Source: Fusobacterium sp.
GTDB lineage: Bacteria > Fusobacteriota > Fusobacteriia > Fusobacteriales > Fusobacteriaceae
Direction: 5' to 3'
DNA length: 6,057 nt
Assembly (NCBI GenBank): GCA_018457305.1
Contig: JAGYHM010000071.1
Location: 1 to 6,057, forward strand
This document shows positions 1,839 through 6,057 of this stretch, one piece after another (the first letter of the stretch is position 1; every line of letters starts with the position of its first letter). The notes under the pieces are model-generated. The model did no database searches, was not told the DNA's origin, and saw nothing but the letters and a program-made list of their open reading frames with translations. A program made the position numbers and the translations under genes.

Positions 1839-3332
1839 ATGAAAGATAAAATTTTTACATCTAGTTATATTGGAGTTGAACCTTATTTAATAGAAGTTGA
1901 AGTTGATATTTCAAGAGGACTGCCTATGTTTTCTATTATAGGACTTGGAGATACAGCAGTAAATGAAAGTAAATTTAGAGTAAAGGCTGCACTTAAAAAT
2001 TCTGGTTTTGAAGTGAAGCCACAAAAAATTGTTATAAATTTATTTCCAGCAGGAATAAAAAAAGAGGGAGCACAATTTGATTTACCTATTGCACTTGGAA
2101 TTTTAAATGCCCTAGGATTTATAATAGATGAAAGAAAAATTTTAGATAAATATTTATTTGTAGGAGAATTATCATTAGATGGTGGAGTTAGAAAAGTAAA
2201 CGGAGTGATAAACTCTGTTATCTTAGCAAAGGAAAAAGGTTTCAAAGGAATTGTTGTGCCTTGGGATAATAAAGATGAAAGCTCTTTGATTGAGGGAATA
2301 GAAATTATTGCAGTGAAAAATATAAAAGAGGTAATTGATTTTATTGTAGAGAATAAAAAAGAAAAGTTTGAAATTTTTAAACCGATACAAGAAGAAAATA
2401 ATTTAGATTTTTCAGATGTAAAGGCACAGTATTTAGCAAAAAGAGCAATGGAAATTTCAGCAGCAGGTGGGCATAATATTTTACTTATTGGTAGCCCCGG
2501 CTCTGGGAAATCTATGCTTGCAAAAAGAATGCTAGGCATACTGCCAGATATGTCTGAAAAAGAAATTATTGAATGTACAAAAATTCATAGTATCTCTGGG
2601 CAACTAACAGAAAAAAATCCTATCGTTTCAAAAAGGCCAGTTAGAAGTCCACATCATAGTACGACACTTGCTGCCATGGTTGGTGGAGGGAAGAGAGTTA
2701 TTCCCGGAGAAATAAGTTTGGCTAGTGGTGGAATTTTAATTTTAGATGAGATGAGTGAGTTCTCACATTCTGTGTTGGAATCTTTAAGACAACCTTTAGA
2801 GGACGGAAAAGTTTCTATAACTCGTGCAATGTATAGAGTGGAATTCAAATCTAATTTTATTTTGGTTGCTTCAAGTAATCCTTGTCCTTGTGGAATGCTT
2901 TATGAAGATACTTGTAAATGTAGCAGATACGAAATAGAAAGATACACAAAAAAATTATCTGGACCTATCTTAGATAGAATTGATTTGATAATAGAAATGA
3001 AAAGATTAAACGAAGATGAACTCGTAAATGAAAAAAAAGAAGAAACATCAGCGGAAATTAAAAAAAGAGTTGTTGGTGCAAGAGAGATACAGAAAAAAAG
3101 ATTTGGGGAAGATAGGACAAATTCTTCGATGAACCAAAAAGAATTGAAAAAATTTTGTGTGATAACAGAGGAAGATAAAATATTTTTAATTTCAGTTTTA
3201 GAAAATTTAAAAATTTCTGCAAGAGTTTATGACAAAATTTTAAAACTTGCAAGAACGATAGCAGATTTAGATAATTCTGAAAATATTGAAAGAAAACATT
3301 TGCTTGAGGCAATTTCTTTTAGGAGAAAATAA
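1839..3332 (+). CDS. comM: ComM/YifB family Mg-chelatase-like AAA+ ATPase
   Basis: Full-length protein of 497 residues, near the usual 500 or so of the family. The N-terminal ChlI-like domain opens with the hallmark GLPMFSIIGLGDTAVNESKFR and continues through INLFPAGIKKEGAQFDLPIA. The AAA+ core has Walker A GSPGSGKS (residues 218-225), the SPHHST segment, and Walker B GILILDEMSEF (298-308). A Cys cluster SSNPCPCG (345-352) plus C359 and C361 follows, as in other family members, and then SGPILDRIDL. A Mg-chelatase-type C-terminal domain ends at FRRK. In Haemophilus and Vibrio, ComM is a hexameric helicase that promotes branch migration during natural transformation. Homologues occur in many bacteria not known to be competent. 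The gene lies between the nusB terminator and its own terminator at 3435, so it is probably monocistronic. Its promoter is not obvious. Confidence 0.95.
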   Translation: MKDKIFTSSYIGVEPYLIEVEVDISRGLPMFSIIGLGDTAVNESKFRVKAALKNSGFEVKPQKIVINLFPAGIKKEGAQFDLPIALGILNALGFIIDERKILDKYLFVGELSLDGGVRKVNGVINSVILAKEKGFKGIVVPWDNKDESSLIEGIEIIAVKNIKEVIDFIVENKKEKFEIFKPIQEENNLDFSDVKAQYLAKRAMEISAAGGHNILLIGSPGSGKSMLAKRMLGILPDMSEKEIIECTKIHSISGQLTEKNPIVSKRPVRSPHHSTTLAAMVGGGKRVIPGEISLASGGILILDEMSEFSHSVLESLRQPLEDGKVSITRAMYRVEFKSNFILVASSNPCPCGMLYEDTCKCSRYEIERYTKKLSGPILDRIDLIIEMKRLNEDELVNEKKEETSAEIKKRVVGAREIQKKRFGEDRTNSSMNQKELKKFCVITEEDKIFLISVLENLKISARVYDKILKLARTIADLDNSENIERKHLLEAISFRRK

Positions 3333-3336
3333 ATTA

Positions 3337-3392
3337 GGGGCGACCCGCGTCCTTCGTACTGGTCGCCTCTCTTGTGGGGGCTTCGCCCCCAA
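3337..3392. repeat. GC-rich double-hairpin repeat, intergenic copy
   Basis: Two hairpins in tandem just after the comM stop: GGCGACC (3339-3345) with GGTCGCC (3361-3367), then GGGGGC (3376-3381) with GCCCCC (3385-3390) around a TTC loop. The spacing between hairpins is 8 bases. The GC content is far above the local background. Neither hairpin is followed by a T-tract, so this looks like a mobile or extragenic palindromic repeat rather than a terminator. An inverted, related copy lies inside the helicase gene at 5921-5976. Confidence 0.8.
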
Positions 3393-3434
3393 CCCCCCCA
3401 AAATTATTTTTTATAAAATTTAATATTTTTTAAT

Positions 3435-3455
3435 AAGGAGGCTTAGCCTCCTTTT
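3435..3455 (+). terminator. Intrinsic terminator downstream of comM
   Basis: Perfect 8-bp stem AAGGAGGC (3435-3442) and GCCTCCTT (3446-3453) around a TTA loop, running into a T-tract. It is the most likely terminator for comM, about 100 bases past its stop. Confidence 0.85.
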
Positions 3456-3459
3456 TGTT

Positions 3460-3490
3460 TTGAAAAAAATATTTAGTTTTGTGTTATAAT
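3460..3490 (+). promoter_or_regulatory. Promoter, copy 1
   Basis: Perfect -10 TATAAT (3485-3490), extended by an upstream TG (TGTTATAAT). A TTGAAA at 3460-3465 lies 19 bases upstream, a long spacer that the extended -10 may offset. It duplicates the helicase promoter and here would transcribe the decayed gene and the membrane-protein gene at 3740. Confidence 0.7.
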
Positions 3491-3531
3491 AAAAATAAAA
3501 ATATTAGGTGAAACGATATGGGAAAAAATAT

Positions 3532-3749
3532 GAGAAATTAGAAAATTTAGAAACTTTAATTGATAAATGTACAACAGGAGATTTGCAAGAAAAATTGATA
3601 GATGTTCTCAAAAATAATTTTGTACCTAAATATATTTTTATGAATTATCGGGTTTAAATATGATAGAAGTTATATCAAGAGAAGTTTAGACTATTTATGA
3701 ATACTTAGAGAAATATTATAGAAGAGGAGGAAGAAATAGTTGGAGATAA
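3532..3749 (+). pseudogene. Decayed small gene of unknown function
   Basis: A coding-like frame enters from the repeat junction as YEKLENLETLIDKC and runs through QEKLIDVLKNNFVPKYIF, then meets stop 3655-3657. Restoring one T in the T-run at about 3635-3639 shifts it into a frame reading YELSGLNMIEVISREV, a TAG at 3687-3689, then TIYEYLEKYYRRGGRNSWR and stop 3747-3749. One frameshift and one nonsense codon therefore explain the loss of a protein of at least 70 residues. Its real 5' end seems to be cut off at the boundary of the direct repeat. The old stop overlaps the start of the next gene, as in a coupled operon pair. I recognise no family. The alternative is chance open frames in AT-rich DNA. 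Confidence 0.55.
3724..3730 (+). promoter_or_regulatory. Strong RBS for a TTG start
   Basis: GAGGAGG ends 9 bases before TTG 3740. The next in-frame ATG is about 65 codons further in and past both membrane helices, so TTG is the probable start. Confidence 0.75.
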
Positions 3750-4261
3750 AAATTTTTGAAACAGAAAAAAACCTTAGAATAGAAAAAAAATGTAAAAAAG
3801 AACAAAACTTTTGTAGAATAATCTTATTTATAGTTTATACTTATTATGTTTATTCTAATATAAATAATGAAAAATGGTTTATAATTTTCTCACTAATTTT
3901 TATATATATAGCTTATAGAATAATTACATTAAAATATATGTATGAAATTATTTATATTGATAAAGAAAATATTTGTTTTAATACAGGATATAACCAAAAA
4001 ATTTTAAATAGAAAAGATTACCAAAGAAAGTATCCGCTAGAAAGTTTAAAGTTTGTTTATTATTGGATATTTTTAGAACCACGTTATATAACGAGTAAAA
4101 CAGAACGAAAAAATTATTTATCTCGTATACATTTTGACTTTGATGGTGAAAAGAAATATGATAGTTGGGGAGCTTGTATTTCTGTAGAAGAAGCAGGAAA
4201 AATTGTGGAAAGAATAAATAATTTTTTAGAAAAACAAAAAGAAAAAAGTTTTGTGAAATAA
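3740..4261 (+). CDS. Hypothetical two-helix membrane protein
   Basis: A 173-residue protein I do not recognise. A short basic N-terminal part (to about residue 22) is followed by two helices, roughly residues 24-39 (FCRIILFIVYTYYVYS) and 46-64 (WFIIFSLIFIYIAYRIITL). A soluble C-terminal domain of about 105 residues follows, with beta-type stretches (YEIIYIDKENICFNTGY and RIHFDFDGEKKYDSWGACI) and a final amphipathic helix (EEAGKIVERINNFLEKQ). This two-helix plus beta-rich-domain plan resembles bacterial PH-like or YcxB-like membrane proteins, but that is only a structural guess. It starts at TTG, overlaps the tail of a decayed gene, lies between two copies of a 107-bp repeat and converges on a toxin-antitoxin operon. 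All of this suggests accessory cargo. Transcription probably starts at the promoter at 3485. Confidence 0.75.
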   Translation: MEIKIFETEKNLRIEKKCKKEQNFCRIILFIVYTYYVYSNINNEKWFIIFSLIFIYIAYRIITLKYMYEIIYIDKENICFNTGYNQKILNRKDYQRKYPLESLKFVYYWIFLEPRYITSKTERKNYLSRIHFDFDGEKKYDSWGACISVEEAGKIVERINNFLEKQKEKSFVK

Positions 4262-4283
4262 AAAAGAACCAAAAAAGGTTCTT
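4262..4283. terminator. Shared terminator between convergent genes
   Basis: AAGAACC (4264-4270) pairs with GGTTCTT (4277-4283) around a six-base A loop (T on the minus strand). On the minus strand the stem runs into TTTTTATTT, a good terminator for the toxin-antitoxin operon. On the plus strand the tail (AATCTAT) is poor, so termination of the membrane-protein gene would be weaker. The hairpin overlaps the last two bases of the toxin stop codon. Confidence 0.75.
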
Positions 4284-4551
4284 AATCTATATAAATTTCT
4301 TTTCTATGTCCTATATCAATCATAAAGATAAAAAGTTTTTCTTCTCTTATTTCTGCAACTAATCTATAATCTCCAACTCTATATCTCCATAGTCCTTTTA
4401 AATTTCCACTGAGTGCTTTACCATGTATTCTTGGGTCATCTGTGTTGTGAAGATTTTTGATAAGCCAATTTGTTATTAGTCTTGCAACACTTTTATCCAT
4501 TTTTTGTAAAGATTTTTCTGCTTTTTTAGACAAAACTACTTTATATTTCAT
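4282..4551 (-). CDS. RelE/ParE superfamily toxin (RelE-type mRNA interferase)
   Basis: An 89-residue basic protein with the RelE fold signature. It opens with a MKYKVVLSKKAEKSLQKMDK strand and helix, then DPRIHGKALSGNLKGLWRYR (39-58), VGDYRLVAEI (59-68), a LFIFMIDIG strand and the C-terminal HRKEIY (82-87). Positively charged residues corresponding to the RelE active-site set are present (K45, R56, R58, R63, R83), and Y87 sits where the catalytic C-terminal Tyr of RelE is expected. RelE toxins cut mRNA in the ribosomal A site. The start codon shares one base with the antitoxin stop (TAATG), with AGGA about 10 bases upstream inside the antitoxin gene, so translation is coupled. It appears intact. 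ParE-like gyrase action is less likely given the conserved basic residues and the Tyr. Confidence 0.9.
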   Translation of the reverse strand: MKYKVVLSKKAEKSLQKMDKSVARLITNWLIKNLHNTDDPRIHGKALSGNLKGLWRYRVGDYRLVAEIREEKLFIFMIDIGHRKEIYID

Positions 4552-4775
4552 TATAAACCTAATCCTTCAACAACTTTTTCTAATGGTATTCCCTCTTCGT
4601 TTTTTGCTTCTTCCCAAGAACTTAAAATTCTTTTTTCGTTTAATGCTAAATCATCTTCTATCTTATCTAAAATAGTATTTCTTACAAATTCAGATAAACT
4701 TAAATTATTCATTTTCACATAATTTTTTAGTAAATTTATATCTTCTGGGTTCATTCTCAATGAAATAGTAGACAT
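4551..4775 (-). CDS. RelB/DUF6290-type ribbon-helix-helix antitoxin
   Basis: A 74-residue protein. The N-terminal STISLRMNPED strand and the NLSLSEFVRNTILDKIEDD helices (24-42) form a ribbon-helix-helix DNA-binding domain as in RelB-type antitoxins. The C-terminal half has SSWEEAKNEEGIPLEKVVEG, ending GLGL, the usual toxin-wrapping tail of this family. ATG 4775 is chosen as the start because AGGAG lies 8 bases upstream. The in-frame GTG at 4784 would overlap that site. It is the first gene of the operon and overlaps the toxin by one base. Such antitoxins neutralise the toxin and repress their own promoter, and a palindrome sits immediately upstream. Whether it is best named RelB or DUF6290 cannot be settled here. 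Confidence 0.88.
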   Translation of the reverse strand: MSTISLRMNPEDINLLKNYVKMNNLSLSEFVRNTILDKIEDDLALNEKRILSSWEEAKNEEGIPLEKVVEGLGL

Positions 4776-4795
4776 TTTTATCACTCCTTTTACTT

Positions 4796-4811
4796 GTATT
4801 ACTTTTAATAC
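4796..4811. promoter_or_regulatory. Candidate operator of the toxin-antitoxin operon
   Basis: Perfect palindrome GTATTA-CTTT-TAATAC with 6-bp arms and a 4-base spacer. It lies just after the -10 box of the minus-strand promoter and covers the expected transcription start. The position and symmetry suit binding by ribbon-helix-helix antitoxin dimers, which is inferred. Confidence 0.6.
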
Positions 4812-4840
4812 ATTTTATATTTATAGAATAAAAAAGTCAA
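4812..4840 (-). promoter_or_regulatory. Toxin-antitoxin promoter
   Basis: On the minus strand, TTGACT (4840-4835) and TAAAAT (4817-4812) are separated by exactly 17 bases, near-consensus sigma-70 spacing. The antitoxin start follows 36 bases past the -10 box. Confidence 0.8.
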
Positions 4841-4881
4841 GTTTTTTTATATTTAGGGAAGTTAGAAATTGATTTTTTAGT

Positions 4882-4904
4882 AAGGAGGCTTAGCCTTCTT
4901 TTTG
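4882..4904 (+). terminator. Orphan forward terminator (duplicate of the comM terminator)
   Basis: AAGGAGGC and GCCTTCTT around TTA, followed by TTTG. The single change from copy 1 turns a G-C pair into a G-U wobble, so the stem is kept. No forward gene precedes it, because the adjacent operon runs the other way. Confidence 0.75.
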
Positions 4905-4906
4905 TT

Positions 4907-4937
4907 TTGAAAAAAATATTTAGTTTTGTGTTATAAT
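4907..4937 (+). promoter_or_regulatory. Helicase gene promoter
   Basis: Extended -10 TGTTATAAT (TATAAT at 4932-4937) with TTGAAA at 4907-4912, spacer 19. The RBS AGGTGA (4953-4958) and the helicase ATG at 4965 follow. The box is identical to copy 1. Confidence 0.75.
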
Positions 4938-4964
4938 AAAAATAAAAATGTTAGGTGAAACGAT

Positions 4965-6057
4965 ATGGGAAAAAATATTTTAAACGAAAGACAATTAGAG
5001 GCAAGCCAAACACTTGAAAATCCACTTTTAATTATTGCAGGGCCAGGGACAGGAAAAACAAAAACTTTGGTTGAGAGAGTGGTTAATATTTTATTGAACA
5101 AAGTTTCCCCTAAGAAAATAATTTTGACAACTTTTACCAATAAGGCTGGCAACGAATTAAAAATTAGAATAAACGAAAGATTAGAAGAACTTAATCAAAG
5201 CGTAGATATAAGTGAGATGTATCTTGGTACTATGCACTCAATTTGGATTAGATTTATTCAAGAAAATATAAAATATTCCAGATTTTTTGATAATTTTTCT
5301 GTGATGTCGGGAGATTATGAGCAACACTTTTTTATTTATTCTCGTTTGAAAGAATATAAAAAAATTGAAGGCTTTGATGAGATTTTTAAAAATTTATCTC
5401 TCTATGAAAGTTGGGGGATAAGTGGTTTCATACGAAAAAAAATAAATGATTTGAATGAGAATGCTATTGACATAAAAAATTTGAGGACGACAGATAAATA
5501 TATTTTATTTTTGAAACAAGCCTATGAACTTTATGAAAAGCAACTCATTGAAGAAAATATTTTAGATTATTCTTTTTTGCAAGTTGAAATTTTATCTATG
5601 TTGAAGAACGAAGAATTTTTAGAAAAAATAAACGAAAAGATAGATTATATTATGGTTGATGAGTATCAAGATTCAAATAAAATTCAAGAAAAAATTTTAT
5701 TGTTGCTTTCAAAAAATAAAAAAAATATCTGTGTCGTTGGGGACGAAGACCAATCAATTTATAGATTCCGTGGGGCAAGCTCTGAAAATATTTTAAATTT
5801 TCCGAAGCATTTTAAATCAGAAAGAAAAAATAATTTTTTATCAGAAGCAAATTTTAAAAATAAAAATAATAGTGGGCTTGGGCACGAAGTTAAGTACAAA
5901 ACAGAAGAAAATAAATTAAGGGGTGTTGGGGGCGAAGCCCCCAACATAAAGGCGTCCAGCGAAGCGTGGGACGCCCAAGAAAAAAATATAGAATGTAAAA
6001 CCATTATTTTAAATAAAAATTATCGTTCGGTAGATGATATCGTAAAATTTTGTGATG
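4965..6057 (+). CDS. UvrD/PcrA/Rep-type superfamily 1 DNA helicase (5' part, runs off window)
   Basis: Open for 364 codons to the window end. An N-terminal Q motif (LNERQLEAS, 6-14) precedes motif I AGPGTGKT (25-32) and motif Ia TTFTNKAGNELK (55-66). GTMHS (88-92), motif II VDEYQDS (231-237), motif III GDEDQSIYRFRGAS (259-272) and motif IV LNKNYRS (349-355) follow. These are the ATP-binding and DNA-contact motifs of 3'-5' SF1A helicases acting in repair and replication. The rest of domain 2A with motifs V and VI lies beyond the window. Between motifs III and IV there are about 58 more residues than usual, encoded by repeat-like DNA. AGGTGA sits 6 bases before the ATG. Whether it is the UvrD, PcrA or another paralogue cannot be told from this part, and the insert could affect activity. 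Confidence 0.93.
   Translation, partial: MGKNILNERQLEASQTLENPLLIIAGPGTGKTKTLVERVVNILLNKVSPKKIILTTFTNKAGNELKIRINERLEELNQSVDISEMYLGTMHSIWIRFIQENIKYSRFFDNFSVMSGDYEQHFFIYSRLKEYKKIEGFDEIFKNLSLYESWGISGFIRKKINDLNENAIDIKNLRTTDKYILFLKQAYELYEKQLIEENILDYSFLQVEILSMLKNEEFLEKINEKIDYIMVDEYQDSNKIQEKILLLLSKNKKNICVVGDEDQSIYRFRGASSENILNFPKHFKSERKNNFLSEANFKNKNNSGLGHEVKYKTEENKLRGVGGEAPNIKASSEAWDAQEKNIECKTIILNKNYRSVDDIVKFCD
5817..5990 (+). other. In-frame insertion in the helicase gene between motifs III and IV
   Basis: From residue 259 (motif III G) to the N of NYRS (352) is 93 residues, whereas PcrA/UvrD proteins have about 35 as I recall the family. The extra stretch starts soon after FPKHF and ends before KTIILNKNYRS, so its limits are approximate. 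Its first part is Lys/Asn rich; the rest is encoded by GC-rich palindromic DNA. There is no stop codon and the frame is kept, so the helicase may still be made. Confidence 0.8.
5921..5976. repeat. GC-rich double-hairpin repeat, intragenic inverted copy
   Basis: GTTGGGGGC (5925-5933) pairs with GCCCCCAAC (5937-5945) around GAA. After it, GGCGTCC (5951-5957) pairs with GGACGCC (5969-5975). About 38 of 56 bases are G or C, against an AT-rich background. Read on the opposite strand, 3337-3392 has the same order of hairpins, the same 8-base spacing between stems and the same CGAAG loop motifs. The second stem differs by one compensated base pair. The stretch is translated here as RGVGGEAPNIKASSEAWDAQ. 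Confidence 0.85.

Follow-up and report, generated by a model that had tools for sequence, protein, structure and literature searches.

Rickettsia palindromic elements (RPE) are said to go back to reports by Ogata from 2000 and 2002. In the sections of the literature drawn on here, RPE are in-frame palindromic inserts in housekeeping proteins, where they occupy non-structured segments (PMC2996958, PMC3733652). The same sections present Wolbachia palindromic repeats and Coxiella QMITE insertions as small repeats turned protein sequence (PMC2996958, PMC5896051), and PARCEL repeats as tandem amphipathic palindromic coding repeats, largely of surface proteins (PMC2996958). The GTAG- and CGTC-tagged REPs are defined by a GTAG or CGTC at one stem-loop end; they are described, in the parts of the paper used here, as often paired and mostly near ORF ends, with some intragenic cases (Di Nocera, De Gregorio and Rocco 2013, PMC3733652). 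UvrD/REP helicase and recBCD genes are listed there among the repair genes interrupted by REPs, in other phyla. The main text of PMC3733652 has no word starting with "fusobacter", and no report of this kind for fusobacteria is among the matches listed in literature searches on palindromic, intragenic and MITE repeats.

Here we describe an in-frame insert with a palindromic element in a UvrD-type helicase gene of a Fusobacterium sp. contig. We call the whole stretch of DNA that was analysed, 6,057 nucleotides in length, the window. The features that matter for the comparison are these:

1839..3332, + strand: yifB (Mg chelatase-like), complete; TIGR00368, E 3.8e-177; adjoins the second copy of the element
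3336..3402, - strand: second two-hairpin copy, inverted, a few bases past the yifB stop codon (3330-3332)
4965..6057, + strand: UvrD-type helicase gene, its 3' half beyond the contig end; PF00580, E 1.9e-66
5814..5993, + strand: 60-codon loop, from KHF to CK; relatives without the insert have about 3-5 residues and the homologue P0010 has 39
5814..5891, + strand: left part of the insert (KSERKNNFLSEANFKNKNNSGLGHEV), akin to the corresponding part in P0010
5908..5976, + strand: palindromic element proper, homologous to the intergenic copy
5923..5947, + strand: hairpin 1, an 11-bp stem with a GAA loop
5951..5975, + strand: hairpin 2, a 7-bp stem plus an inner 3 bp, with one compensatory change relative to the second copy

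Results

The insert in the helicase gene

The sequence-only reading of this DNA had placed about 58 extra residues between motifs III and IV of the helicase, at 5817..5990, with the reading frame passing through without a stop. Comparison with homologues bears this out. The window has 81 residues between motif III and NYRS, where all 30 homologous loci of the host's family have 24-25; the proposed boundaries fit, with a net gain of about 56-57 codons, and the helicase frame (4965-6056 in the ORF list) stays open across the insert up to the contig end. We place the site between motif III and motif IV, presumably in the turn that joins helicase domain 1A to domain 2A. Full-length homologues of the window helicase are mostly 900-980 amino acids long. 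The alignment with orthologues that had been proposed finds that the long loop is not general. Besides the 30 family loci, we used the best 120 of 1625 proteins, of which 117 are informative after setting aside the window's own and two without the region; the loop is short in 116 of them, and the exception is P0010. An alignment to PcrA stops inside the window insert. When 5823-5990 is shuffled with its dinucleotides preserved, 304 of 20,000 shuffles are open in the frame used, before a further one in three for length.

The two strong hairpins noted earlier in the insert DNA are confirmed by folding, both as single-stranded DNA (5871-5982, z -5.38) and as RNA (5817-5990, z -4.28); none of 200 shuffles is equally stable in either case. 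The folding of the hairpin region is strong on both strands. High GC content had been claimed for the whole of 5817..5990, but just the right half of this interval is GC-rich, since GC is 0.65 at 5921-5980 and 0.13 at 5817-5870, against 0.27 in the gene upstream of the insert. We also observe by eye that 5871-5898 (GTGGGCTTGGGCACGAAGTTAAGTAC) resembles hairpin 1 in decayed form, which would fit a tandem doubling of the element, and gives a weak blastn match.

A second copy behind yifB

Positions 3410-3338, read in reverse, match 5908-5976 with a blastn E of 2.5e-12, so that the two copies lie in opposite orientation. A cmsearch of the window with a model built from these same two copies finds both and no others. 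The hairpin 1 core GTTGGGGGCGAAGCCCCCA is identical between the helicase copy and the intergenic copy. The second copy lacks four outer pairs of hairpin 1, and in hairpin 2 one pair is changed on both sides between the copies. The pair counts are without statistical force because there are only two sequences: they are equalled in 230 of 500 shuffles, and sliding by -2 leaves the covariation score the same. The folding stability of the second copy by itself is not unusual (z -1.77), and its two ends match each other as well in 56 of 2000 shuffles. No transposase is found among the window genes examined. In three relatives (L092, L093 and L094) there is no GC-rich hairpin behind yifB, and the helicase loop is short. 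The match to yifB of F. gastrosuis at L094 (G001:C1:1067002-1068491) falls into two overlapping frames, as would follow from a frameshift close to the 3' end of the gene.

The marks of a MITE would be terminal inverted repeats and a target-site duplication. Both copies have a AGRAGAAAATAAATTA-like flank on their left, a similarity that none of 2000 shuffles reaches. The same score is found at two other places in the window, and the flank at yifB is partly native coding sequence, so a AGRAGAAAATAAATTA-like target preference of the element is only suggested.

The contig has other repeated and structured stretches. A direct repeat of 107 bp (97%) is found at 3425-3531 and 4872-4978; it contains a terminator-like hairpin, the helicase upstream region and the first codons, and the approximately 1.3 kb between its copies hold an ORF of 173 aa and a toxin-antitoxin pair of the RelE/RelB type (4282-4551 and 4551-4784, - strand). 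A duplication or insertion seems to have taken place here, leaving a false helicase start upstream. The structured intergenic stretch 1672-1812, between nusB and yifB, has GTGGGCTTGGG in common with 5872-5882, and a search for it elsewhere gives weak partial matches in 26 of the 61 genomes of the host's family and no convincing copies.

Searches for further copies

The known copies of the element are two, both within one 6-kb contig. A blastn search with 5865-5985 has no match in 61 genomes of the host's family (with no positive genome as control) and none in the one F. gastrosuis genome searched, and the exact 15-base hairpin core is absent from all 61 family genomes. Looser searches reach a few genomes: a 24-base pattern with 3 mismatches occurs in 1 of the 61, the two-copy model at E up to 10 matches 3 of the 61, and the same model at E up to 0.1 under the stricter filters of Infernal matches 2 of 96 genomes of the order, neither convincingly. 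The candidates, which do not convince as copies of the element, include L043 (F. gastrosuis, E 0.03), a hairpin between genes that has one more long copy close by; L044 (E 0.05), which by eye resembles GC-rich coding DNA; and L045 (E 9.3), which recurs partly once on its own contig and is absent from F. gastrosuis. The L043 genome has 13 model matches at E up to 1, 11 of them short. At about 1500-1700 of L043, a TTGAGGGCTTCGCCCTCAAAACCCC-like hairpin repeat stands in two neighbouring copies (87%).

No other protein with the insert peptide is found by a search that needs shared short words and restricts the length of candidates; the query alone is returned, among 1 and 10 candidates. Viral contigs have no relatives of the helicase, and the hairpin patterns occur in 0, 3 and 1 of them, which by eye have only a hairpin in common with the element. 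The insert has no match in phages, and the two copies have none in plasmids. The BLASTN and covariance-model search that had been suggested for this DNA comes out divided: it yields the second copy at 3336-3402 in the contig, but no convincing copy in the 96 genomes of the order. From these searches we reject an element family spread over known fusobacteria, and in the sequences searched the element appears so far confined to this contig.

A related insert in P0010

P0010, in which a domain search finds UvrD_C and a PD-(D/E)XK nuclease, is 87% identical to the window protein outside the insert (306 columns). The next in the tree after it, P0036, is 84% identical and has no insert. In a tree of 25 proteins, P0010 and the window group together with support 91/64, which is moderate and below the program's 95/80 mark, and in 90% of 200 bootstrap trees. 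P0010 is the probable sister lineage of the window, and since the two group together, one gain suffices to explain both inserts, with the moderate support just given.

In their left parts the two inserts are related, none of 5000 shuffles reaching the score, and in their right parts they match weakly (34 of 5000 shuffles are as good). The left and right parts align in the same order in both inserts (GEAPNIKASSEAWDAQ with GEVSNINEASEVLESQ). If the 21-codon core 5916-5978 is removed from the window, 13 codons remain after GHEV, as compared with 13 after GEV in P0010, a tally made by eye with core ends of our own choice. The frame of P0010 is kept across the whole 981-residue protein. We also note by eye about 8 extra residues relative to the window at approximately residues 45-60 of P0010, a second small insertion. 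Because P0010 has a related 39-residue insert in the same place, the 58 residues of the window probably did not arise in a single recent insertion. The insertion at the helicase site probably began before the split between window and P0010, and the intact palindrome was probably added, or kept, only in the window's lineage.

In AlphaFold models, built with 59 sequences for the window and 58 for P0010, both inserts are predicted as disordered loops where domain 1A meets domain 2A. The pLDDT is below 50 at 286-334 and 336-339 in the window insert, which helix 279-282 precedes and strand 345-349 follows, and at 294-328 in the P0010 insert, between a helix and the following strand. The P0010 model has confident structure on either side of the insert. 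In the window model the strand after the insert is confident (block mean 89), whereas confidence is low over the final 14 residues, at the cut end (67, 59). P0010 is open to its end, so an insert at this helicase site is compatible with a complete protein.

Discussion

We consider it likely that a small REP/RPE-like palindromic element has survived in frame as a tolerated linker. Two adjacent GC-rich hairpins of about 60-70 bp would form a small palindromic repeat present at least 2 times in the host genome. One copy would lie just behind yifB and outside the protein, and the other inside the UvrD-type helicase, a helicase-nuclease in its relatives, at the presumed turn from domain 1A to 2A. 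Because its length preserves the frame and there is no stop in the frame used, the insert would be translated as a disordered linker, and the enzyme would tolerate it. The site would probably have held an older in-frame insertion in common with the P0010 lineage, with the intact palindrome added, or kept, in the window's lineage alone. We infer that the element arrived by copying or movement, that the palindrome came after the older loop, and that the insert peptide is made and the helicase works.

In another order of events, the whole palindromic insert would already have been present in the ancestor of window and P0010, its hairpins being kept here and decayed and shrunk in P0010. The common order of left and right parts, at 34 of 5000 shuffles, and the grouping of the two lineages are in keeping with such a single old insertion, and the weak right-side match may mean that the palindrome is old in P0010 and decayed there. 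However, the core of hairpin 1 is identical in both window copies despite the 13% residue difference to P0010 outside the insert, and given this divergence a palindrome that old should have eroded, unless gene conversion or selection maintains it. We hold one old insertion to be rather unlikely, and an older loop followed later by the palindrome is favoured over it, because the core is intact and equal to the intergenic copy and because its removal leaves the same 13 codons as in P0010. The hairpins could also be kept for a function in RNA or DNA, such as pausing or a protein-binding site, and not be passengers. Folding on both strands would suit such a function, as would the second copy's position behind a stop codon, where REPs usually lie in the parts of PMC3733652 used here. 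We regard it as improbable, given that the hairpins are seen in one lineage only, that no Rfam family reaches its gathering score, and that neither hairpin is terminator-like in a consensus scan. That scan covers 3200-6057 and reports three sites, none of them an element hairpin, and on this basis we also rejected a terminator copied into the helicase gene.

Inteins and introns are far larger than the window insert; on its size and the missing Rfam match at gathering score we rejected both. Ribosomes are known to hop over the hop elements of some yeast mitochondria and over a stretch of phage T4 gene 60, and GC-rich hairpins within a gene at a domain boundary might recall these cases. An untranslated insert is nevertheless scarcely credible here, as bypass requires neither the frame nor the absence of stops and both hold (few shuffles being open, as given above), and the P0010 insert is also in frame in its 981-residue protein. 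It is very unlikely that the insert is an assembly chimera near the contig end. The loop does end 64 bases before the end of the 6057-base contig, and the protein is counted from a single contig, but orthologous sequence picks up in frame after the insert, P0010 has its insert in the same place on another contig (14,412 bases), and the protein cluster counts 3 member sequences, whose loops may be alike.

Going beyond the tolerated linker, one can imagine that an uncultured Fusobacterium-like lineage has an unnamed mobile family of two-hairpin palindromes, which inserts next to AGRAGAAAATAAATTA-like sites on their far side, either behind genes or in frame within them, and has repeatedly lengthened the 1A-2A hinge. 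This is a tentative idea that we find doubtful; if it were true, the linker could alter the stepping or processivity of a recombination helicase-nuclease. The window and P0010, with different inserts, and P0036, with none, form a small natural series on how an insert enters, survives and erodes in an enzyme.

Comparison with known systems

An independent RPE-like case in a Fusobacterium-like genome had been proposed for this DNA. The in-frame palindromic insert and the second copy agree with that proposal, and no dispersed family with copies in several protein genes emerges from the searches described above. As in RPE, in the sections consulted, the window insert is palindromic and in frame in a conserved protein, and falls in a non-structured segment, the last trait being known here by prediction; the element is also found elsewhere in the genome, with one further copy (3336-3402). 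Unlike RPE, to which we liken it by description, the window case concerns so far one gene, in another phylum. The Wolbachia repeats and Coxiella QMITE insertions, as described in the parts of the papers used, are likewise comparable by description, and the window element differs from them in both host and element. It shares palindromic coding sequence with the PARCEL repeats of those same parts, but it is a single unit in an enzyme.

Like the GTAG/CGTC REPs in the sections of PMC3733652 drawn on, the element is short and palindromic, with one copy behind an ORF and one intragenic in a UvrD-type helicase. Unlike GTAG REPs, it lacks GTAG on both strands of 5908-5985 and 3333-3410, and unlike CGTC REPs its CGTC occurs inside hairpin 2 only (in the stem at 5953 and 5970, in the loop at 3348) and is never terminal. 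The kind of protein-coding palindrome is already known, and the Fusobacterium-like case appears to be new. Intracellular alphaproteobacteria are the hosts from which such palindromes are best known; a Fusobacterium-like organism would now be added to them, and the gene concerned is again a DNA-repair helicase, a bias already remarked by Di Nocera et al. in the parts of their paper used here (PMC3733652).
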